Assembly: GCA_030141605.1 (NCBI GenBank)
Contig: JAQGDQ010000254.1
Coordinates: 1-64,000 of the forward strand
Length of the DNA: 64,000 nucleotides
Direction: 5' to 3'
From: Tubiluchus corallicola
Taxonomy: Eukaryota > Priapulida > Priapulimorpha > Priapulimorphida > Tubiluchidae
Part shown: positions 6,001-54,178 of the stretch, piece by piece
Layout of the letters: every line of letters begins with the position of its first letter
Position numbering within the stretch: position 1 is the first letter of the stretch
Translations under genes and position numbers: made by a program
The notes under the pieces: generated by a model
The model's database searches: none
The model's input: only the letters and a program-made list of their open reading frames with translations
Told to the model about the DNA's origin: nothing

Positions 6001-8502
6001 GATGATATTCCTGATTTGGTTGCTGTAGACGAATCTGTTGATGTTATTTTAGATGATGCTACCTTAATGCCCAAAGATGTTGAGCTTGAAATAATAGCTC
6101 GTGAACTGCAGCCTGAGGCTGAACATGTGGTTCTGTCTGATGCTGAACTGCCTCAACTGGTTATCGCTGGTGAGGATATTGAACAGGTATCCAAAGATGT
6201 TGTCGAAGAGCTTGATGATATTCCTGATTTGGTTGCTGTAGACGAATCAGTTGATGTTATTTTGGATGATGCTACCATGATGCCCAAAGATGTACAGCTG
6301 GAAAAAACAGCTCATGAACTGCAGGCTGAGGCTGAACATGTTGTTCTGTCTGATGTTGAACTGCCTGAACTGGTTAGTGCTGCTGAGGATATTGAACAAG
6401 TGACCAAAGATGTTGCTGCAGAGCTTGATGATATTCCTGATTTGGTTGCTGTAGATGCATCACTTGATGTTATTTTAGATGATGCTACCTTGATGCCCAA
6501 AGATGTAGAGTTTGAAATAACAGCTCGTGAACTGCCGGCTGAAGCAGTACAGGTTGTCCTGTCTGATGTTGAACTGCCTGAACTGGTTAGTGCTGCTGAG
6601 GATATTGAACAAGTAACCAAAGATGTTGTCGAAGAGCTTGATGATATTCCTGATTTGGTTGCTGTAGACGAATCAGTTGATGTTATTTTAGATGATGCTA
6701 CCTTAATGCCCAAAGATGTTGAGCTTGAAATAACATCTGCTGAGGCAGAAGTTGTCCTTTCTGATGCTGAACTGCCTCAACTGGTTATTGCTGGTGAGGA
6801 TATTGAACAGATAACCAAAGATGTTGTCGAAGAGCTTGATGATATTCCTGATTTGGTTGCTGTAGACGAATCTGTTGATGTTATTTTGGATGATGCTACC
6901 TTAATGCCCAAAGATGTTGAGCTTGAAACAATAGCTCGTGAACTGCAGCCTGAGGCTGAACATGTGGTTCTGTCTGATGCTGAACTGTCTCAAATGGTTA
7001 TCGCTGGTGAGGATATTGAACAGGTATCCAAAGATGTTGTCGAAGAGCTTGATGATATTCCTGATTTGGTTGCTGTAGACGAATCTGTTGATGTTATTTT
7101 GGATGATGCTACCTTGATGCCCAAAGATGTTGAGCTTGAAATAACAGCTCGTGAACTGCAGGCTGAGGCTGAACATGTTGTTCTGTCTGATGTTGAACTG
7201 CCTGAACTGGTTAGTGCTGCTGAGGATATTGAACAAGTAACCAAAGATGTTGTCGAAGAGCTTGATGACATTCCTGATTTGGTTACTGTGGACGAATCAC
7301 TTGATGTTATTTTAGATGATGCTACCTTAATGCCCAAAGATGTTGAGCTTGAAATAACATCTGCTGAGGCAGATGTTGTCCTTTCTGATGCTGAACTGCC
7401 TCAACTGGCTATTGCTGGTGAGGATATTGAACAGGTATCCAATGATGTTGTCGAAGAGCTTGATGATATTCCTGATTTGGTTGCTGTAGACGAATCAGTT
7501 GATGTTATTTTGGATGATATAACCTTGATGCCCAAAGATGTAGAGCTTGAAATATCATCTACTGAGGCAGAACAAGCTGTCCTGTCTGATGTTAAACTGC
7601 CTGAACTGGTTAGTGCTGCTGAGGATATTGAACAAGTAACCAAAGAAGTTGTCGAAGAGCATGATGACATTCCTGATTTGGTTACTGTGGACGAATCACT
7701 TGATGTTATTTTAGATGATGCTACCTTGATGCCCAAAGATGTAGAGCTTGAAATAACAGCTCGTGAACTGCCGGCTGAAGCAGAACAGGTTGTCCTGTCT
7801 GATATTGAGCTGCCTGAACTGGTTATTGCTGCTGAGGATATTGAAAAAGTAACCAAAGATGTTGTCAAAGAGCTTGATGTTATTCCTGATTTGGTTGCTG
7901 TGGATGCATCAGTTGATGTTATTTTAGATGATGCTACCTTGATGCCCAAAGATGTAGAGCTTGAAATAACATCTGCTGAGGCAGAAGTTGTCCTTTCTGA
8001 TGCTGAACTGCCTCAACTGGTTATTGCTGGTGAGGATATTGAACAGGTATCCAAATATGTTGTAGAAGAGCTTGATGATATTCTTGATTTGGTTGCCGTA
8101 GACGATTCAGTTGATGTTGCTTTTGATGATGCTACCTTAATGCCCAAAGATGTTGAGCTTGAGATAACATCTACTGAGGCAGAACAGATTGTCCTGTCTG
8201 ATGTTGAACAGCCTGAGCTGGTTATTGTTGGTGAGGATGTTGAACAAGTAACCAAAGATGTTGTCGACAAGCTTGATGATATTCCTGATTTGGTTCCTGT
8301 GGGCGAATCAGTTGAAGTTATTTTAGATGCTGCTACCTCGATGCCCAAAGATGTACAGCTTGAAATAACAGCTCATGAACTGCAGGCTGAGGCTGAACAT
8401 GTGGTTCTGTCTGTTGTTGAACTGCCTGAACTGGTTAGTGCTTGTGAGGATATTGAACAAGCAACTGAAAAAGTTGTCGAAGGGCGTGATGATTTTCCCA
8501 AT
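1..8502 (+). repeat. Coding minisatellite: 41 units of 198/201/213 bp plus a partial first unit
   Basis: Complete units start at 61 and end near 8502. Each starts with a V-x-V-D-E-S-V-D-like motif and ends with ELDDIPDL. By my count there are 18 units of 71 residues (with an inserted ARELQPEAEH-like segment), 19 of 67 and 4 of 66 (one Gln missing). The sum 18x213 + 19x201 + 4x198 = 8445 bp agrees with the measured span. Long and short units often alternate. The first ~4.5 kb is almost uniform and contains displaced near-identical blocks: 58-474 matches about 2932-3347, and units 4-5 match units 12-13. Units after about 4.6 kb are more diverged. This pattern fits unequal crossing-over or gene conversion. 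Such an array is prone to assembly collapse, so the copy number should be treated as approximate. Confidence 0.93.
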
Positions 8503-13345: not shown

Positions 13346-15174
13346 CCTATCTTTGAGCGCTGAGTGTCCTTTTCGCTTCATTTTGCTTTAGAAACACATT
13401 GGATGTTGCAGTACCTAAACCATCATTTTCAGTTTTTTTGTGTTTTCCATTTCCTTTCCAATGACTGGGGCAATTTTCACTGTTAAATCTATGACAGCTT
13501 TCAGGTTTTAATTATATTTCACTCTATTACTGGGACTGTGGCCCCAGCATTTTTCAATTGTAGATTAGAATGTATTTCAAAAGCCTTATATCGGGTGCCG
13601 GAGAAAAATGTACCGAAATTTAGACTACAATAATATTAGAAACTAGTGCTCTGCAAAGTTGGGATTTTACAAAATGATATTGCAGTGCATTAGCTTTTGG
13701 CTGTGAAAGTTACGAGTTTATAGTTTTAGCATTAAACAGTTTTTGAGTAATGCCAAAAATATTTTACATGTTAAAAATCTAAACGCAATGTAATCACAAA
13801 AAATTCACAAGTAATTGAAAAAAGCCGCTTTGACGTACAAAGCACTCAATGTATGGCAGCAAAAAATAAGCAAAATCAATCAGTTTACATCATGGTCTTC
13901 ATCAGAAAAAATAGAGCTTTGATAAAGATTTGTTATCGAGAATGCCCTGGAATTCCCTTAAAAAGAAATTGCACGATGGCCGTGCAAAGCTGTTTGATTC
14001 AAAGTAACAAGGCAAAAACTGTTAAATGCTGTCCAAATACGCCTTAAAGAAGTGAAAAAGTGTCAGCTGTTGGATGAAACGACTTCATCTAGTTTGTAGT
14101 GAAAATGCTAGACACATAGAGCACTTACTGCAAATTTAAGCAATAGATATTCATCTATTGAATATGACATGTGATTTTTCCGGCATTTATTTTTTGACTC
14201 GTCAATTTAAAACTTCTGTTTCTGGAAAAAATTGAGGTAATGACCTAAAAATTTTGGTGCTTACACACAAGAGTCTACAACGTCAGTGTGGTAATTTTCA
14301 GGAGTCTCCGTTATTTTCTTCTTATAATATCGTGATCAAAAGTTTGGCATATTTTTTGCGCCACCTGATACAACGTCAAAAATGATGTAGCCTGCATGGC
14401 TGTCGTATTAACATATAAATTCTGAACAGGTTTTTTACAGCGACCTTACACATTAACATTTTTCAGGTCTGAACTTTTTATGATTATTCAAGTCAAGCAA
14501 ACCGTTAAGTACTTGCAATAAGATACTTTCTAATGAGTATCTGTGATCGGTTCTTAAACTCTACGGCAAGATGCACTGCTCATAGTCTGGCAGTAGATGT
14601 CTTTACTACAAAAAATCCACAGGCCCAGGTTCCAATGTTTTTGCGCGCATGCGTTTCATTTAGTCCTGTTTCAAGCTTAATAAACTCAATACAAAATCGC
14701 TTCGGAAAGTTGCGGTCACTAGGCAGCATTCCACAATATATAATAAGAAAATACAAAGCTTTAAAAGTTAATCGAAATCACGTTGTCTCAAGTTTGCTTT
14801 CGCTTTAGACACACAATGAAAAACACACATTACCTCCTGGCAATTATTATGTTATTAAATTCCTTTAGAAGTGCCTATTGAACGCATTTAAAGAGCTGAA
14901 CATCTGCTACTGATTTCGTGCCGCCAGGTTATACGCAGACTCAAAGACAAAAGTATTATTGTGACACATCCAAGTGTTAGCCCTAGGCTTTTATAAGGTT
15001 ATCAGCAAGGGCTTAGAAGCTTTTCTGCGCATTTCCACCTCGGCGATATCAAACGAAGGGTACTTAAGGTTCAGGAGGAATAAGAATCCAACATACATTG
15101 GCAAAATGCTCATGAAAGCATGTTACTAATGCTCTGTACCTAATTGGACATTAGCCTGTGTTCTTAAACACATT
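13346..15174. other. Intergenic, nothing recognised
   Basis: AT-rich spacer between the giant gene's 3' flank and the class C receptor. Short frames at 13853-14047 and 14533-14808 have no recognisable similarity or splice context. The receptor's promoter and 5' UTR presumably lie in the last few hundred bases, but I see no distinctive motif. Confidence 0.5.
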
Positions 15175-18100
15175 ATGACGGGGGCAAATCATGCTTTTCT
15201 CAAACTTTCTTTATGTACATGCTTTGTCGTTTTGGTAAAAGCCGTTGTACCACCAGCTGCACTGCAGACTGCTTACATTCTTGAACCAGGTGATCTGATG
15301 TTGGGACTGTTGTTAGGCGTCCATGACTACCACCCCGTAAAACCCTGTGGAGAGAAGATAACTGAGTATCGCCGTGTTCCTGCCGTATATACTATGGAGT
15401 TCTTGAAACAGAAGTTCGAAGCCGACCCCACCATTCTACCGAATACCAGCATCGGTTATGTCTGGTACGACACTTGTTACAAGGATTCTACTGGAATGGC
15501 ACAAACATTGCATTTTATACCAGATTCTTGTACCTCTGACAGCTCTGCCACTACAAGTACTCCGCTTTTGCAGCCTCAAGATAGCAATGATTTCTTGAAC
15601 ATGAAAGGCAATGAATATGTCGATGTCGTAGGAGTAGTAGGCGCAACATTCAGCTCCACAAGTATTCTAATCAATCATATCCTTAATATGTATGAAATAC
15701 CGCAAGTCAGTCAAGCATCAAGCAGTGATACACTAAGTGACATCAGCAGACATGAATACTTCTTTAGAGTTTATCCGCCTGATAGGTATCAGGTGCTGGC
15801 CATCATGAGTGTTATCAAGCATTTTCAATGGAAATACATTTCAATGATATACTCTGAAGGTAGTTATGGTGAAACTGCAGAAAAGTACATTCACGAAGAT
15901 GCCAAAAAAGAGGGAATCTGCATGGCTGTGGTGAGAAAGGTGCCATATAGTGCCACTTATGCCGACTTTGATGCATACGCCAATGAGCTCATCGAAAACT
16001 CCAAGGCAAGGGTGGTAATACTGTTTTGCCTTGGCGACCATGTACCATGGCTTTTCAAAAACCTCCAAGCAAAAAACTACACGAATCATTTCATTTGGCT
16101 TACCAGCGAAGCTTGGGGAGGAACCTTTGCTGATTACAGAGACATAGAGCAGATGTCTCTTGGGACCATTGCCATCACTCCAACTGTCAGAGATGTCCCA
16201 GAATTTGACCAGTGGTTTTCATCACTGACTCTGAACGATTTTACAAAGTATGGGCTGATGAATATCTTTTGGGAGAAGAAATTTAATTGTTCGATAAACG
16301 GAAGTAGTGGCACTCGTACATGTGACCGCAACACCAGATTGGGGGCACAACATGAACCACACCCAGTGACATCCTTGTTACTTGATGCAGCCAATGCATT
16401 AATATACAGCATAGATAAGCTACTTAAGAGAAAATGTCCTGAAACAACAGGTCAGGCTACTAGAAACTGTATAACAGGAAAAGAAGTACTTGAATCTATG
16501 AAGACAATAAGTTATCCCGGGTATACAATGGATACGATTCGCTTTAATGAAAATGGCGATATCCGGGCCCAATATGTGGTGCAAAATTTCCATGCAAAAC
16601 ATGGAAAGTATATTTTAGAGCACATAGGATCTTGGAGTGAGGCTGAAAACAGATTACTCTTGTTCAAAAAAGTGACCTGGGCAACAAGAACAATGGAAAA
16701 CAAGTCTGAAGAATATTTTGTTCCAGAATCTGTTTGTGCAACATCATGTCCGCCAAGACATTACAAGCAACAGTTGGAGGTGTCATGTTGCTGGGAGTGT
16801 AGAGCATGCAGAGAGAATGAATACCTGATTAACAACAATACGAAATGTGTCGCTTGTCCAAAATTCACCTGGCCCCAGGAATCTGACGATACGAACTGTG
16901 AGATTATTCCCCCAAGTTACCTAGATGTGACAGGAACTGCTGGGCTCATCAGTATTGTTCTGACAATCTTTGGGATTCTTTTTACCTTTTTGGTTACCGT
17001 TTTATTTCTGTGGCATCGGAATGCTAAGCTAATTAAAGCATCGAGCAGAGAACTGAGCATCATAATCCTGGTGGGCATTCTACTGTCGTTCTTTGTTGTG
17101 TTTCCTTTGTTATTGAAGCCGAAGTCGGGACACTGTGCCATTGGTCGTTTTGGGTTCATACTCTGCTTTACAACCATCTATGGTCCACTGTTGGCAAGAA
17201 CGAATAGAATCTACCGCATCTTTGAAGCTGGCAAGAAGACAAAGATGGTGCCGAGTTGTATAGCACCAAGATCACAGATGATGCTGAGTGGACTATTCAT
17301 ATTGATCCAGGTACGTCTGTAATGCACATTCCAATAAATATTAATTTTTTTACATTGATCACTTGACAAAATCATGCAAATCGTTTGGAGTTCAAAAATG
17401 ATTCTGCAGTTTGTAATAACAGAACAGAATTAGCCCATGAAGGGATTAAGGACTGGAAAGCCTAGAAGAAATTACTGAACTTAGCCCAGATCCCTTAATG
17501 AGATTTGAATTCAGTGACAGTCTTGGCTTTCTTACTGTAAACAACATTATCCACCCTTACTTTACCTAGAAACAATAAAAATGGTGATAAAGAACATAAT
17601 TGTATAAGATTAGACATTCACTTTGTACTTGCGCATGGTAAAAAGCAGACTTTGTTCATGTCCTGCAATAAATAGACATGTTAGACTTAATGCAAACTTG
17701 GTGCTGACTGAGTCTGAACTCAGGCTGGTTAGAAAGTAAAGGGTTTGATATCACATATTAAGGATAAATGAGAATTGGCAAATTGCCAGAATCACCCAGG
17801 CAAAACTAATCAAAGCTACTGATGGTTTGATTTGTGAGACATCCTCACTCAACCTGCATTCAGTGAATAATTGATAGTGCATAAACTAAGAAATTTGCAA
17901 AACAAACCATTTAATGACTTACTTTACAATGATCTTTAAAAAAATAGTCATTTAATAAAACTTTTGTAGACTGTAAGCAGACAGATCACTGTTTGGTCAT
18001 CATTACCTAACAACATATGCACAATATAAGAAATTTCAAATTTACTCATTAAGTTTGTCAGTTTGATAAAGTCGTGAAAAAATGCTTAATCCATCTCATT

Positions 18101-18934
18101 CTTGTCATTGTATAAGACGACAAAACTAGGTTGAATTTGCAAGATAACTCACTATGATTTTATATACCATAATATTGTTTTTCTTCTTTGATGACACTAA
18201 TCACTTTTAGTTTAACTCTTCACTAATTTGTCTGCACAATTTGTTTGAAATTAACACGTTTCAATTAGTTTAGCCATTTTTTGAAGTACGTTCTGAAGTT
18301 ATTTTCTCATCAATATTCTCACATAAATATAAAACAACAATATTTATTGATATCATTTCATTTGCAGGCAGTAATTAGTACAACATGGGCAATAATAGAA
18401 CCACCCAAAGTTGTCCTGGAGATGCCACAAGTGGTGTTACGCTACGTGGAATTACGCTGTCACATGAGTGCAGGGGAACTCGTTACCTCCGTCAGCTATA
18501 ACCTTTTGCTGATCATCATCTGCTGTTACTACGCTTTCAAGACACGCCGCCTACCAGACAACTTCAACGAGTCCCGTTTCATCTGCTTCTGCGTTTACAC
18601 CACCATGATCATGTGGCTCGCATTCCTGCCCACATACTTTACGACAGCCACGCCGCTGTACAGACCCATCTACCTGTCATTGGCACTTATCATCAATGCA
18701 TACGTAACCACTGCCTGCTTTTTTATACCGAAATTATATGCGATTTACTTTGCGACAGAAGACAAGATGAATTTAACCAAGGATGGTCCGGCAGGTAAAG
18801 TGGGCAAAGCTAAAGCTAAGGTAACACCTGGAGTCTCTGTCACCCAGCCAGGTACAACAGGCCCAACAAATTCTGAATCTGTCAGTACAAGCACAAAGAC
18901 TAATCCACAGCCCTCAACAAAACAGAAGGCATAG
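15175..18934 (+). CDS. Class C G-protein-coupled receptor, metabotropic-glutamate-like
   Basis: Two coding exons, 15175-17310 and 18368-18934. The donor CAG|GTACGT and acceptor TTTGCAG join in phase 0 to give 900 residues, usual for mGluR-type receptors. Order of parts: signal peptide (~1-23); Venus-flytrap ligand-binding domain (~40-490); Cys-rich linker (~516-577, with a CCWECRACRENEY stretch typical of mGluRs); seven membrane spans (~583-840); short Ser/Thr-rich tail. TM3 carries an LLARTNRI motif and TM7 ends FIPKLY, both mGluR hallmarks. The intron falls inside TM4. By eye-alignment to mGluR1, the alpha-amino-acid contacts are mostly kept: Ser in the FSSTS loop, Asp in YPPD, Tyr in SEGSYGE. 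The Thr188 position is Ser and the Asp318 position is Glu. A plasma-membrane receptor for an amino acid or similar small ligand is therefore likely. Which ligand, and which mGluR subgroup, cannot be told here. Confidence 0.9.
17311..18367 (+). other. Intron of the class C receptor gene
   Basis: 1,057 bp intron, AT-rich, with GT-AG ends. I see no exon or recognisable mobile element in it. Confidence 0.8.
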
Positions 18935-47000: not shown

Positions 47001-50000
47001 CTATCTTACTGATAAGTTTATTTCATAACTTACCTATTATTGTCAACAGATTTCTGTGACTAACGTAGTAATGTTATCGCATTTTATTTTACATTTAAGC
47101 TACACTCGCGGGAAACATGGCTGAAAGAAGCACGGTCTATTAAAGAAGGCGAAGTACCATACAAGATGGTAAAACCACGACCCAAACCGGGTAAACCTAA
47201 AGGAGAACCATTAGAAGCCACCCTTCAGCTTTACGGAAAGTGGCAAACAGAACCGTATAAACCTCCACCTATAGAAAATGGCAAAATACCACGGAATCAA
47301 TACGGAAACGTTGAGCTATTTAAGCCATGTATGTTGCCAGAAGGAGCTGCTCACTTGAGACGTAAGCATGCTACAGTAGGATTTAACACAATGAAAGTAA
47401 CGAAGCTTTTTTATCACTGGTACAGTAGAATCTTGGTTATTCCTAATAATGATCTCCCTAGCCAGATTTTTGTAGATATAGTGAAGTTTAATTTTTATCT
47501 TAATCGATGCAACAGGAACAGTCTCAATACATGGTGACATACTATGAATATTGTTACATCATACGTTAATATTACTATCATATACACTATCATTACTGTA
47601 AAGGAATAATTGTACTGCAGTGGGCTAGGCAAGCAATACTTGCATGTATAAGTCCAGTGACGTGAACCAAAAAAAGAACAGGGAGAAAGATTAGATCACA
47701 CAGGAAAGGAAGAAAGATGTGTTAGTGGAAGTTGTAAGAAGAAAGGCAGCAGGTTGTACGATGTTTACCTCAGCTCTAGATATCGACTCATCTTTTAAGC
47801 ATAATTTGTACTGGGATTGTGATATATGAATTATATTTTAAAGTGCTTTGACTTTTAATGCTCAATGAATCCTTGCAAGAGATGGGCAAGTGTGAGCCAG
47901 TTTGCATTTTTTTGTGTGTTTGGCACACTTCAAGTCAGTATCCAACATTCAGTGGCATTGTATACTCAGGAAAACATTTTTACCTTGGTGGTGTAACTGT
48001 AACCTAGCTCTTTATTACGGATATCTCTCTAAGGTGAGCCAGTGAACCGGCAAATTTGTTTAGACCACATTTTGGTGGATTTACATCCTCATCTTATGAG
48101 GTAAATGGCTGAGAACCAGTGCTGTGAGTGAAACCTTTAGGGACACATATATCATACCCAAACAGTCACTTAGGGATGCTATCTTCTACTAAAAGGATAC
48201 TGATTTAAAATCTTTCCGACACTTTGTAGATACGCCTCTTGTTTTAGTTGATTTAGGAATATTCTGTAAATAAATTCCAGCCCTTATGGGGCATTTAGAA
48301 CATTCATTCTCAACTAAATCCACAGTAAAACCACATCTTTGAAGAGTTTATTTAATGTGAGTAGTTGTGCAAGGGTTCTTTTCTCTAATTACTGTACTAG
48401 ATTTGTTCAAATTATTTTTATGATCTCTTTAAAACTAATCTTTGATGAGACATTTTTAATATATTACATTCTAATAAAAAGTCTTGTGGTCATTATTTTT
48501 TAGTACCTGGTTTAAATCGAATAGCACAAAAGTTGGCCGTTGATTGTGTACCAGCTATGGTTGGTTGGGACTTTCATGGAGGATACAGTCATGCCGTGTA
48601 AGAATTGCTACTATAATTTTCAAATATAATATTCATTTCAAATTCAGTTTATTTTTATAACTTTGAAAATGACACCTGCTTATAAATAGTCATACATGAA
48701 ATCAATGGGATGTTATTTCCAGTGTTAGAAGGCTAATCATTAAATACCTGTAATTAACACCTTCATGAGTATCCACCTATCATAGCTGGTATGTGAATAT
48801 AAGCACCTGCAGTTTTCTTATATTTAAGTGCGCATAAATAGTATTAAAGCTTTACTAAGTATTATTTGCTTTCTAGTACCTGGATTAAACCGTATAGCGC
48901 AAAAGTTGAACGTTGATTGCGTACCGGCTATGATTGGTTGGGACTTCCATGGAGGCTGGAATCACGCAGTGTAGGTGGAGTGAAAATTTCGAAGTCCACA
49001 CAAAATTTAAAATAATTTTTTTTATTCGTAGTAGGACAAATGAAACTTTCAGATAATCAAAAATCACTAAATACTACCATACTCAATCTATCATTTGTAG
49101 TTAAACTGCACTAGCTTCTGTTGGTTTAATGTTTTCAAATAGATGACAACTTATGTATAATGAAGTGACATCTAGTGACAAGGAAAAGGAAGAGTTATGA
49201 GTGGGAATCTTTTAAACTACAATGGTCGTAAAGGGTGGTCATTGCTTATTATAGAGAGACTTGATTTAGAAAAATTGAAAATGTCAATTTAAAGTTTTTG
49301 TTTGTAACTTGTACATACATTTATAAGAACTGAAAATATTTTATAGTTTTCACTTGTAGATTGAGGCATGTGAATAACGCTCAAGCAAAAATAATTGGTT
49401 ATCTTGAGTTGCGTGATAACAAAAATTGTTTGCGTTAATTTGCATAGACATTAACTCATTAAACATTTCTTTTACCTGGTTGATTAAAAGTTAGGAGTAA
49501 TTAGTCTCAAATAAACTGACTTGACTATAGTAATTTGTGACTGAAATCCATGTGGAATGTTTAATTAACAGTTTAAAGCAAGCTGTTCAACTTATATGCT
49601 GTACACATTCATGTAAAACACTAAATTGTGTAAGTTGTGCAAGTCCATCTCTTGTGCATTTAGACTTGACGGCTACATCGTCTGCGCTGAACATGCTGAT
49701 AGTCTCCGTGAAGCTTGGGAGGCGGAACAGGAAGAATTTGAACGCAGGCAGAAACAGAAACGACAGAAAAAGGCAATAGCAAATTGGAGACTGTTGACGC
49801 GTGGTTTGCTGATCAGAGAGAGATTGCGCAATCGCTATGATCTACAGGTCAGTTGCCTTAGTTGTAAAGGTTGATTGAAAAGTAACTGCTGAATTTTTAG
49901 GCTCATTAATTTTTTTTAATCTAATAAATGTTTAAAAAAAATCTCTACTACAGTATTAAATTCTATTTATAGTATTGTCGTTTTATGACGCTGAGAGCTT

Positions 50001-50188
50001 CTGCCAAACAACTTTAATCTTTCCTGCAATGACATTCACCAGTTTTACACTACGTCGAACATTTTCTTTCACAGAAACCCAAGCCAGTGAATATCAAAGA
50101 AGGAGAAAAAGCAAAAGATGACGAATCATCTTGGCCCAGAAACAGAGGACTTGTGAAACAGCTTGACACTTACAGTGAACAAATGTGA
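32041..50188 (+). CDS. xpc: XPC / Rad4 DNA-damage recognition protein
   Basis: XPC senses helix-distorting lesions, starts global genome nucleotide excision repair, and recruits TFIIH in the nucleus. Coding exons: 32041-32182, 34050-34658, 35554-35650, 36715-36799, 38029-38247, 38591-38653, 39620-39706, 40859-41190, 42890-43020, 44097-44345, 45604-45773, 47100-47361, 48504-48597 or 48877-48970, 49664-49847, 50075-50188. With one exon-13 copy all phases close: 2838 nt, 945 residues (human 940). Order: basic/acidic disordered N-terminus with a WEEVEE motif; Rad4 transglutaminase-fold half 1 (exons 4-7, [20 protein letters not shown]); charged linker (exon 8); half 2 (exons 9-10, RWIPVDC); BHD1 (exon 11, [19 protein letters not shown]); BHD2/3 (exons 12-13); centrin-binding helix [15 protein letters not shown] with Trp-x2-Leu-x3-Leu (exon 14); a SSWPRNR tail. 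The start is the first ATG. Exon 6 is the least certain, fixed mainly by phase. Confidence 0.95.
33525..33990 (+). repeat. Dispersed ~450-bp repeat, family R2, copy in XPC intron 1
   Basis: Aligns along its whole length with the reverse complement of 59788-60200. Shared stretches include GCAGAAGTTTGAATTA, TTTTTGCATGAA, CAAATTTCTTTGT, AATAAACCCAACATGC and TTGTCCTTT. It has no coding capacity, so it is a non-autonomous element. The type (SINE or MITE) is not clear; I saw no convincing terminal repeats. Confidence 0.7.
36505..36600 (+). repeat. Short dispersed repeat, family R3, copy 1 (XPC intron 3)
   Basis: Resembles 40303-40385: both have a CACTGAA segment, then GGTATCTTAGCC/GGTGTCTTAGCC, then a CTACAA-like and AGCCAGAA segment. 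Diverged and non-coding. Confidence 0.4.
37075..37400 (+). pseudogene. Degenerate LINE reverse-transcriptase tail
   Basis: Short pieces in shifting frames recall the C-terminal end of RTE/L2-type elements: [16 protein letters not shown] at the left, then [10 protein letters not shown] in another frame, then a DRWQWTGM-like piece. Frameshifts and stops make it inactive. It lies in XPC intron 4 and ends in a GATGATGAC microsatellite near 37400-37420. Confidence 0.45.
40303..40385 (+). repeat. Short dispersed repeat, family R3, copy 2 (XPC intron 7)
   Basis: See the copy at 36505-36600. Nearby (about 39880-40110) is other repeat-like sequence rich in TTCGAA palindromes. Confidence 0.4.
41548..42816. 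mobile_element. Foldback-type element with internally repetitive inverted ends
   Basis: Left arm about 41551-41712 repeats TTCCCAGAAAA-like words. Right arm about 42690-42814 carries the same words in reverse complement, ending GTGGGAAACAG against CGTTTCCCAGAAAA on the left. The interior of ~1 kb is non-coding and includes a purine-rich tract (42461-42620). Long terminal inverted repeats made of short tandem motifs are the form of foldback transposons. It is wholly inside XPC intron 8. Confidence 0.6.
42461..42620. repeat. Purine-only-like GA-rich tract
   Basis: About 160 bp in which the + strand is almost all A and G (AGAGAGAAGGAGAGGG-type words). Such a tract can form triplex DNA. It lies within the foldback element. 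Confidence 0.85.
43310..43630. mobile_element. MITE-like 320-bp near-perfect palindrome
   Basis: The left half (43310-43465) and right half (43472-43630) are reverse complements with few differences. The ends read ACATTTCAAACTAGCACAAC on the left and GTTGTGTTAGTTTGAAATGT on the right; the centre is at about 43468. There is almost no loop, so the whole element can form one long hairpin. Non-coding, in XPC intron 9. Confidence 0.85.
44375..44450 (+). mobile_element. SINE-like element fragment, copy 2 (XPC intron 10)
   Basis: Matches the body of the element at 13090-13345: CCCAAATGTGG, GACATATTTG, GGTTCACT, then ATCTTAGAGAGATATTCTTAAT. No tRNA-like head is visible. Confidence 0.5.
48008..48075 (-). 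mobile_element. SINE-like element fragment, copy 3, reversed (XPC intron 12)
   Basis: The reverse complement reads CAAAATGTGGTCTAAACAAA, then TTTGCCGGTTCACTGGCTC, then TTAGAGAGATATC, in the same order as copies 1 and 2. Confidence 0.5.
48504..48597 (+). other. xpc: XPC exon 13, copy a (BHD3 hairpin)
   Basis: 94 nt between a TTTTTTAG acceptor and a GTAAGA donor. It enters in phase 1 and leaves in phase 2. It encodes the BHD3 segment with [14 protein letters not shown] and YSHAV. It aligns with human XPC at the stretch holding Phe797/Phe799. Confidence 0.93.
48877..48970 (+). other. xpc: XPC exon 13, copy b (BHD3 hairpin)
   Basis: 94 nt between a TTTCTAG acceptor and a GTAGGT donor, with the same phases as copy a and 279 nt downstream of it. 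It encodes [14 protein letters not shown] and WNHAV. Against copy a there are 16 base differences: 10 synonymous, and 6 in four codons (Ala>Asn, Val>Ile, Tyr>Trp, Ser>Asn). No stop or broken splice site is present, so it is not a decaying copy. Confidence 0.92.
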
Positions 50189-51747: not shown

Positions 51748-54060
51748 CTAACTATCAAACCATTTGCTTTCTTTCATACCAATACCCGCAAACTTGTTTT
51801 TGTACTGATTTATTAATTTGTCCAAACTGTCACTTGTCTTCTGCTTAACTCGAATGTTTTTCTGCTTCTCGGGCTTCACAACATCTCTTTTGACCTGCTG
51901 CCTAGACTTTTTCCCAATTGGCTTGTTAGATTTTACTGCCCTGGCTTTGTGCCGAATTTTCGGGCCAAAATGAGAAGGCAAAGTATTTGGTGGTTTTCGC
52001 TTTCCAGATGACATTGCTGTGCCGTCCTTTTGATGCTTCTGAATTTTACTTTTAGTATCCTTAACAATTGTCCCAGTATCTTGCTTGGCTTTTTTGGATA
52101 CACCTCCAACATCATCTTTTATCTTTCGCTTTTCAGCGGTGCCTTGTTTCAGCATATTTCGCTCTCGTTTTCGCTTCTGGGCATTAAGAGCGACCCTGTT
52201 TTCTAACGAAAATTCTACGATGAGCCTTCGGTTGTTAGGAAATAGATTTGGATTGTTATTGGTGTTGTGCAATGCAGACAAAGCATCTTCGTGTTTGGCA
52301 AACTCCACAAAACCATAACCAAAAGACTTGGCGATGCCCTTGCTGTTAACCTGCCTCCTGTCCCTCATTACTCTAGCCTTGGTAATCCTCGTGATTTTAG
52401 TTTCAGCAGCTTTTGCAAATATTTCCTTTAAATTTTTGTCATCAACTGACTTGGGAAGATTTCTCACACATAGACGGACACACGAGATGAAAATATTCAA
52501 GTTTTTCAGTTTCTGTCTTTTCGTCATTTCTAACTGTTGACGTTTCAGGAGGTCCTGTTTTGGTGTTCCAGCAGCTGCTTGCGTTCCCATTCGTATTAAT
52601 CCCACACGTGCAAGGTGGAGGTTACGGTTATCCTTTGGCTCTTTTTCTTTTTGGGTAAGCTTGCTCGCTTCTTCTCGATTAATGGCTTTGGTTATTAACA
52701 GCTTTCTGTTTTTCAAAATCAATGAATTATCGGCTGTATTACTCTTCTGTATGCAATCTTCTGCTGCTTCCACTGTAGCAAATTTCACAAAAGCTGTCCC
52801 TTTTGGATGCTCGGTGAGAGGATCCACACAAACTCGGATGTACACTACTTTCCCAAACTGTTTGAAAATGCCGTCTATATCTGCTTCCTCTGCATCATAG
52901 CTGAGATTTCGTATAAAGACTGTTTTGCCTTCGCCAACATCATCTGGAAGCTTTAATCTCTCTTTTTTTGATTTAGTTTTACCACTTTGTTGCTCTACGT
53001 CATACTCGTCTTTTGTATCACTGCCATCATGATCTAAATCACTATCAGCATTATCATCGTTTGGATCAGAAATACTACCGTCCTCATTGTCGTCATCACT
53101 GACACTGGATTCTCTGCTTTCATCATTGTCGTCAGACTCACTAACTGCACCTTTTTTGTCAGATTCGGTCATATCGTTACCTTGCCCCGTGACCTTGCTT
53201 TGCATTAAAGTCATGTACTGTTGTTTCGGCAAGGCCCAATCAACAGCGATTTTTCGTCCCTTCACTTCCATCATGTTCACTTTGTCCACAGCCTCAGCAG
53301 CAGCGTTAACATCAACAAACTGAACAAATGCAAAACCAGGCATTTTTCCATTGCCCTTTTTTGGTATAACTACTTCACTCAATTCACCGTATTTGGAAAA
53401 GATCTTTGTAAGATCGCTCTCTGAGCACTGAAAGGGAAGATTCCGAACGATTAACCTTGATTTTTTTAAAGACAGCTTCTGCCGAGAAGTTGCTTGTTCT
53501 TTGTCAGCTAGCAAGAATGTTTGCGCTTTGCACTGTTTTATCATTTTTCCACTGAGTTTCTTTCTTGCTTTAATTGCACTTCCAACTGTAGCAAATGTCA
53601 CTAAAGCTGTTCTATCAATGACATCAATACTGGCAGGATACTCTAAAGATCGGACATTCTTCAGCTTTTTCAGAGTTTGCATTACATCTTCTTTTACTAC
53701 AGTTTCATCTAAGCCACTAAGTACTAAAACTTTCTTATCGGCATCTTTTTCATGTATCACGTTCTTTGAATTTTCCTTTGCTTTACGTTTTTCTTTTCGT
53801 TTATCTAATTTATGCTCGGCAAACTGAATGAACACTTTCCTGTTCTCCACAGATTTCACCTCTTTCATTGCGTTTTCCGCATCCTCCCGCATAGCAAACG
53901 TGACGTATCCAAAACCTCGGCATGTATCACTCCCCTTTTCCTTAACTACGAAGCACCTATTTACCGGTCCATATTCACTAAATACATTTTCTAGCTGCTT
54001 ATCTGAGGTTGTATAAGTTAAGTTTCTCACAAATAATGTTTTGCTACAAACACGAGCCAT
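51748..54060 (-). CDS. rbm28: RNA-binding protein 28 (Nop4-type nucleolar RRM protein)
   Basis: RBM28/Nop4 is a nucleolar protein needed for large ribosomal subunit assembly and associated with spliceosomal snRNPs in vertebrates. One exon, 770 residues (human 759). RRM1 ~7-85 (LFVRNL; RGFGYVTF); a degenerate RRM2 ~108-180; RRM3 ~203-280 (LIVRNL; GFAFVQF); an acidic Asp/Glu/Ser tract ~300-365; RRM4 ~382-460 (VFIRNL; GTAFVKF); RRM5 ~530-620 (LCVRNL; FGYGFVEF); then a long Lys/Arg-rich tail. The last residues are SKWFDS, identical as I recall to the end of vertebrate RBM28, which supports an intact full-length gene. The start MARVCSKTLFVRNL is the first ATG before RRM1. Having no intron is odd beside intron-rich neighbours. 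The start lies 118 nt after the UQCC6 stop on the same strand, leaving little room for a promoter. Confidence 0.95.
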   Translation of the reverse strand: MARVCSKTLFVRNLTYTTSDKQLENVFSEYGPVNRCFVVKEKGSDTCRGFGYVTFAMREDAENAMKEVKSVENRKVFIQFAEHKLDKRKEKRKAKENSKNVIHEKDADKKVLVLSGLDETVVKEDVMQTLKKLKNVRSLEYPASIDVIDRTALVTFATVGSAIKARKKLSGKMIKQCKAQTFLLADKEQATSRQKLSLKKSRLIVRNLPFQCSESDLTKIFSKYGELSEVVIPKKGNGKMPGFAFVQFVDVNAAAEAVDKVNMMEVKGRKIAVDWALPKQQYMTLMQSKVTGQGNDMTESDKKGAVSESDDNDESRESSVSDDDNEDGSISDPNDDNADSDLDHDGSDTKDEYDVEQQSGKTKSKKERLKLPDDVGEGKTVFIRNLSYDAEEADIDGIFKQFGKVVYIRVCVDPLTEHPKGTAFVKFATVEAAEDCIQKSNTADNSLILKNRKLLITKAINREEASKLTQKEKEPKDNRNLHLARVGLIRMGTQAAAGTPKQDLLKRQQLEMTKRQKLKNLNIFISCVRLCVRNLPKSVDDKNLKEIFAKAAETKITRITKARVMRDRRQVNSKGIAKSFGYGFVEFAKHEDALSALHNTNNNPNLFPNNRRLIVEFSLENRVALNAQKRKRERNMLKQGTAEKRKIKDDVGGVSKKAKQDTGTIVKDTKSKIQKHQKDGTAMSSGKRKPPNTLPSHFGPKIRHKARAVKSNKPIGKKSRQQVKRDVVKPEKQKNIRVKQKTSDSLDKLINQYKNKFAGIGMKESKWFDS

Positions 54061-54178
54061 GATCTCAAGGAATTAGATTCGATTAACTAGCATTCCAAAC
54101 TCTTTATATTCATGAGATGCTAAGCAGCTCTTCAGCTACCGGCTAAATCTTTGTTTCAATTGCTTTGGCTGGATCATG
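54061..54178 (-). promoter_or_regulatory. 118-nt gap between UQCC6 stop and RBM28 start
   Basis: No AATAAA or ATTAAA is seen on the - strand in this gap. A possible acceptor-like GAGCTGCTTAG (reading - strand, near 54118) could take a trans-spliced leader, but its pyrimidine tract is weak. The alternative is a very compact promoter or shared transcript. Confidence 0.35.

Follow-up and report, generated by a model that had tools for sequence, protein, structure and literature searches.

Duplicate exons for the BHD3 hairpin in the XPC gene of a priapulid worm: a candidate mutually exclusive pair with a shared complementary intron element

Introduction

Competing RNA structures are known to govern the choice between duplicate exons in a number of genes (PMC6071210, PMC9013439, PMC10790352, PMC9198270), with Dscam1, 14-3-3zeta, Mhc, MRP1 and ATE1 among the examples of docking-site/selector systems (PMC6071210, PMC10790352). 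In the accessible text of this literature, the selectors of such systems are described as intronic and adjacent to the exons, and the dock is placed either upstream of the exon cluster, as for Dscam exon 6, or downstream of it. Duplication of one arm of a stem has been proposed as an event that creates competing pairing of this kind (PMC6071210).

The exons described here encode part of a DNA-repair protein for which the closest comparisons are human XPC and yeast Rad4. In the available excerpts on Rad4, the segment termed ‘beta-hairpin3’ comprises residues 599-605, within which Phe599 guides flipping and Arg601 and Ser603 are at the tip, and residues 789-815 of human XPC are equated with Rad4 589-616 (PMC7708039). 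F797 and F799 of the human protein are described as flipping contacts (PMC4713717).

Here we describe a pair of duplicate exons in the XPC gene of the priapulid Tubiluchus corallicola (assembly GCA_030141605.1), within the first 64,000 nucleotides of contig JAQGDQ010000254.1. This stretch is hereafter referred to as the window, and all coordinates refer to it.

Results

The window contains an XPC gene on its + strand, the single XPC gene found. Pfam matches to Rad4 (transglutaminase-like) and BHD_1 were identified in open pieces at ~44.1-44.4 and ~45.6-45.8 kb, and matches to BHD_2 and BHD_3 in the exon at 47100-47361 together with the joined exons beyond it. The gene thus encodes the transglutaminase-like domain together with BHD1, BHD2 and BHD3 that define the XPC/Rad4 family, and its closest relative among solved structures is human XPC (E 3.1e-64). 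Family searches of the genome returned one BHD_2 and one BHD_3 match, both within exon 47100-47361; these searches match exon by exon, so that weak matches can escape them, and the BHD_3 search missed the two short exons described below. The exon at 47100-47361, which was placed by its Pfam BHD_2/BHD_3 and human XPC matches, encodes BHD2 and the start of BHD3 and ends in the donor GAC/GTAAGC. It is followed, after the duplicate pair, by a constant exon at 49664-49847 (the end of BHD3 and the following helix) and by the last coding exon at 50075-50188, with a TGA stop at 50186-50188. The borders of exons farther upstream were guessed by eye.

Several other features of the window were recorded. 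From its first base to position 8498, a 201-nt (67-codon) unit is repeated in tandem ~41 times; by eye, the + strand of this unit spells an acidic protein repeat. At 15130-18934 lies a class C GPCR gene, in which a ligand-binding region, a nine-cysteine domain and a 7tm_3 domain are encoded over at least two exons. On the - strand, tail to tail with XPC, a 774-codon open frame at 51748-54072 contains four RRM_1 stretches and is presumably RBM28-like. Within XPC itself, alignment with the human protein shows that the human N754-E755-F756 turn reads Asn-Gln-Tyr in exon 47100-47361, so that the DNA-repelling Glu755, which has been called evolutionarily conserved in the accessible part of one report (PMC4713717), is replaced.

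Between the constant exons lie two 94-nt exons, A (48504-48597) and B (48877-48970), separated by 279 nt and bounded by proper AG/GT splice sites, with the donors CGT/GTAAGA and AGT/GTAGGT respectively. The initial annotation had described this pair, and its account of the anatomy was borne out: the copies differ at 16 bases, of which 10 are synonymous and six nonsynonymous, yielding four amino-acid changes (A>N, V>I, Y>W and S>N, in the direction A to B). The exons are neighbouring, homologous and equal in both length and phase, as expected of mutually exclusive exons, and their similarity ends almost at the splice sites (84% over 104 nt, 48497-48600 against 48870-48973). DNA searches of the genome and a search of the window for a third copy returned only the places of A and B.

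Joining the exons in silico to 47100-47361, 49664-49847 and 50075-50188 likewise upheld the claim that one copy keeps the frame and that none or both breaks it. A alone or B alone leads to the same downstream protein and the same stop, whereas skipping both brings a stop 71 nt upstream of the last coding-exon junction, and including both brings one 241 nt upstream of it. Since these early stops precede the last junction, the skipped and double products are plausible targets of decay. Two other sources of exclusivity were set aside: steric exclusion by judgement, the 279-nt spacing being roomy (a branch-point-like TACTAAG was noted by eye near the exon B acceptor), and U2/U12 incompatibility by eye, both donors (GTAAGA and GTAGGT) being ordinary.

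An alignment with human XPC places the four amino-acid differences at D787, T795, Y803 and S804. Copy A retains the human Tyr and Ser at the last two positions (tip HGGYSH), while copy B has Trp and Asn there (HGGWNH). Both copies have Phe at the F799 position and, unlike human XPC, both have Trp at the F797 position; the BHD_3 scores of the two isoforms are near equal (94.6 and 94.4 bits). Because human 789-815 has been equated with Rad4 589-616 in the available excerpts (PMC7708039), we infer that Y803 and S804 fall inside the inserted BHD3 hairpin, the residue-by-residue matching to Rad4 being putative. The initial annotation had put the Tyr/Trp and Ser/Asn changes immediately after the tip; they appear instead to lie within the very segment deleted as ‘beta-hairpin3’ (Rad4 599-605; PMC7708039).

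The intron between the copies holds a feature that was absent from the initial annotation: an element at 48767-48796 that is complementary to the equivalent stretch of each exon, 48544-48573 in A and 48917-48946 in B, at 27 of 30 positions in either case. By computation, this amounts to one element with a site in each exon and room for one pairing at a time, as in a competing structure. The RNA test was post hoc, having been made once repeat finding had listed an inverted pair that links the intron with exon A, among seven inverted pairs in all. Gapless complementarity scores were 47 for A and 49 for B, against means of 24.7 and 23.9 for dinucleotide-shuffled introns, which reached the observed score in 0/3000 (A) and 1/3000 (B) cases. 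None of 2160 overlapping stretches of the window reached it either. Six other XPC exons, with borders partly set by eye, were also cut into slices and compared with 279-nt stretches within 3 kb; none of 1178 comparisons reached 47 (the top score was 44). When 48760-48797 was run against both strands of the window, a score of 38 was reached only by the two exons and the element's own complement, and a genome DNA search with the element, which skips very common words, returned only its own place. A search of viral and of bacterial/archaeal sequence collections yielded no related loci.

In equilibrium (not kinetic) partition-function folds of three RNAs that stop short of exon B, ~28 pairs formed between 48762-48796 and exon A; in four longer RNAs ~30 pairs formed with B and 0-0.4 with A. 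The fold of the whole 496 nt was not significantly more stable than that of shuffles (z -0.87; 18/100 fold as well). A duplexfold measure was matched by few shuffles (2/1000 for A, 0/1000 for B, 0/1000 for both) and by rather more window stretches (57/1000, 18/1000 and 12/1000, respectively); duplexfold energies permit long loops, and the gapless score was adopted for that reason, with both reported here. Synonymous recoding of the exons reached the observed gapless scores in 264/5000 (A) and 98/5000 (B) cases, so that the pairing is only modestly special by this standard, much of it being fixed by the protein.

The same data can be read in another way, to which we give a substantial weight, if somewhat short of an even chance: the exons would be mutually exclusive, and the intron element would be an inverted exon remnant undergoing decay, without any role, the choice being left to splice-site strength, splicing factors and decay of the wrong products. 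This reading differs from the one we favour only in its RNA part. Local alignment matches the reverse complement of the intron to each exon (34 nt, score 28, reached by 2/2000 and 0/2000 shuffles), and an inverted exon fragment is a likely origin of the element. Such an old fragment could explain the complementarity as well as an RNA switch does, and frame together with the decay suggested above could yield exclusivity by itself. The share of G-U pairs in the helix, compared with that in a decayed inverted copy, is not clearly higher (P 0.105, n=19; P 0.093, n=227). Against a relic without a role, the helix includes three of the differences between A and B and pairing is kept at all three, which random placement does equally well in 3.1% of trials (P=0.033 under a codon-position-matched null); and a strong duplex is predicted with A as well as with B, however the element arose.

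We then consider whether a single copy serves in normal splicing, with the other as a recent or rarely used duplicate, a cryptic or poison exon. The early stops that follow double inclusion or skipping would suit a poison exon, and a cruder neutral test, with eight substitutions on one free copy or branch, is indecisive (P 0.15-0.17). Both copies, on the other hand, have intact splice sites and are free of indels and stops, and their divergence (dN 0.085, dS 0.73; NG86) points to constraint: had all 16 changes fallen randomly, the expected number of amino-acid changes would be 10.6-10.7, and a count of at most four would arise with P 5e-5. We also simulated one dead and one constrained copy, allowing for splice-site loss as well as for stops and indels. 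Kappa was assumed to be 2, omega 0.12 and the indel rate 0.1 per substitution, and indel and splice-site losses were scored for the dead copy only. Among runs with 8-12 synonymous differences, success was counted as six or fewer nonsynonymous differences without a stop, indel or splice loss. The dead copy remained intact by this measure in 2/33 runs at t=0.1, 1/126 at t=0.15, 1/242 at t=0.2, 0/347 at t=0.25, 0/410 at t=0.3 and 0/395 at t=0.36, whereas with both copies constrained success fell from 100% (t=0.1) to 47% (t=0.36). A ratio of nonsynonymous to synonymous change as low as that observed is therefore rare for a simulated dead copy. These simulations provide good, though not final, support, drawn from one genome, for use of both copies, and we regard a single working copy as unlikely.

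Genes known to be edited contain intronic editing-complementary sequences that pair with their exons, and the predicted duplex of ~30 pairs with either exon might likewise guide RNA editing of the hairpin codons of one or both exons as an ADAR substrate, besides or instead of controlling splicing; editing has no need of pairing with both exons, however, and we consider this improbable. That two haplotypes or a collapsed repeat were placed side by side in an assembly of 2344 contigs is the least credible explanation, given that similarity stops near the exon borders and that 17% exon divergence (16/94) with a 10:6 synonymous excess is unlike that of two alleles.

Discussion

The reading we favour is that a tandem exon duplication in XPC gave rise to two exons, A and B, that are probably used mutually exclusively. 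The initial annotation had proposed such use, and much of its basis stands, in that the phases match, the frame tolerates exactly one copy, both copies are intact, and their ratio of nonsynonymous to synonymous change is unlike that of a dead copy; the splicing of both copies, and their exclusive choice, we infer from these features. The outcome would be two XPC proteins differing at four residues, two of which would lie in the tip of the BHD3 hairpin. The reading frame may enforce exclusivity in part, as transcripts with zero or two copies would meet an early stop and could be removed by nonsense-mediated decay.

RNA structure probably contributes as well under this model, with the element at 48767-48796 pairing with A or with B, never with both; taken by itself, the proposal that this element enforces the choice is tentative, and we would put it at rather less than an even bet. 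In pairing with A, the middle of exon A would be held in the helix and the A donor in the loop; in pairing with B, the middle of exon B would be buried and the B acceptor looped. In either state, the exon engaged in the helix would be a candidate for masking, together with the looped splice site next to it, although looping can also promote splicing (PMC10790352, in the text available). The ratio of A to B could be set by the speed of transcription or by a double-strand-binding protein. The most far-reaching form of the model holds that coding sequence within each hairpin exon competes for the intron element, and that the order and speed of transcription choose a Tyr-Ser or a Trp-Asn tip, and hence the ease with which DNA is opened at lesions, across tissues or under stress. 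As a whole we hold this chain to be speculative and unlikely.

Like the docking-site/selector systems, the XPC pair consists of duplicates of equal length with one element that could pair with one of two copies at once, and it may work like that class. We do not file it there, as the selectors of the cases compared are intronic (a feature of those cases, not a strict definition), whereas the selector-like stretches predicted here are coding and lie inside both exons, with the dock-like element in the intron between them. In the accessible portions of the literature surveyed, we found no competing-structure system with both selectors inside exons.

In comparison with human XPC and yeast Rad4, the gene shares the same Pfam BHD_1, BHD_2 and BHD_3 and Rad4 transglutaminase-like domains, and differs in that separate exons encode alternative tips for the hairpin, YS and WN. 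A search of the accessible literature, which includes few subscription papers, returned no described isoform switch of this kind for XPC, in line with the suggestion of the initial annotation. As for the earlier proposal that the isoforms might differ in lesion sensing, the hairpin tip does differ, but the Phe that directs flipping (Rad4 Phe599/human F799) is the same in both. Any effect could be small, since deletion of the hairpin in yeast changed UV survival and CPD repair little in the excerpts available (PMC7708039). Yeast and human are reported to differ in this respect, the hairpin being largely dispensable in yeast cells and human XPC deleted for 789-815 needing UV-DDB (PMC7708039).

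XPC is usually thought of as a single, general-purpose sensor. If both exons are used as proposed, two natural XPCs with different inserted fingertips would provide a natural experiment on the role of the hairpin tip. If the exon-internal stretches do act as selectors, this would point to a simple evolutionary route, in which duplication of an exon creates exclusivity at once.
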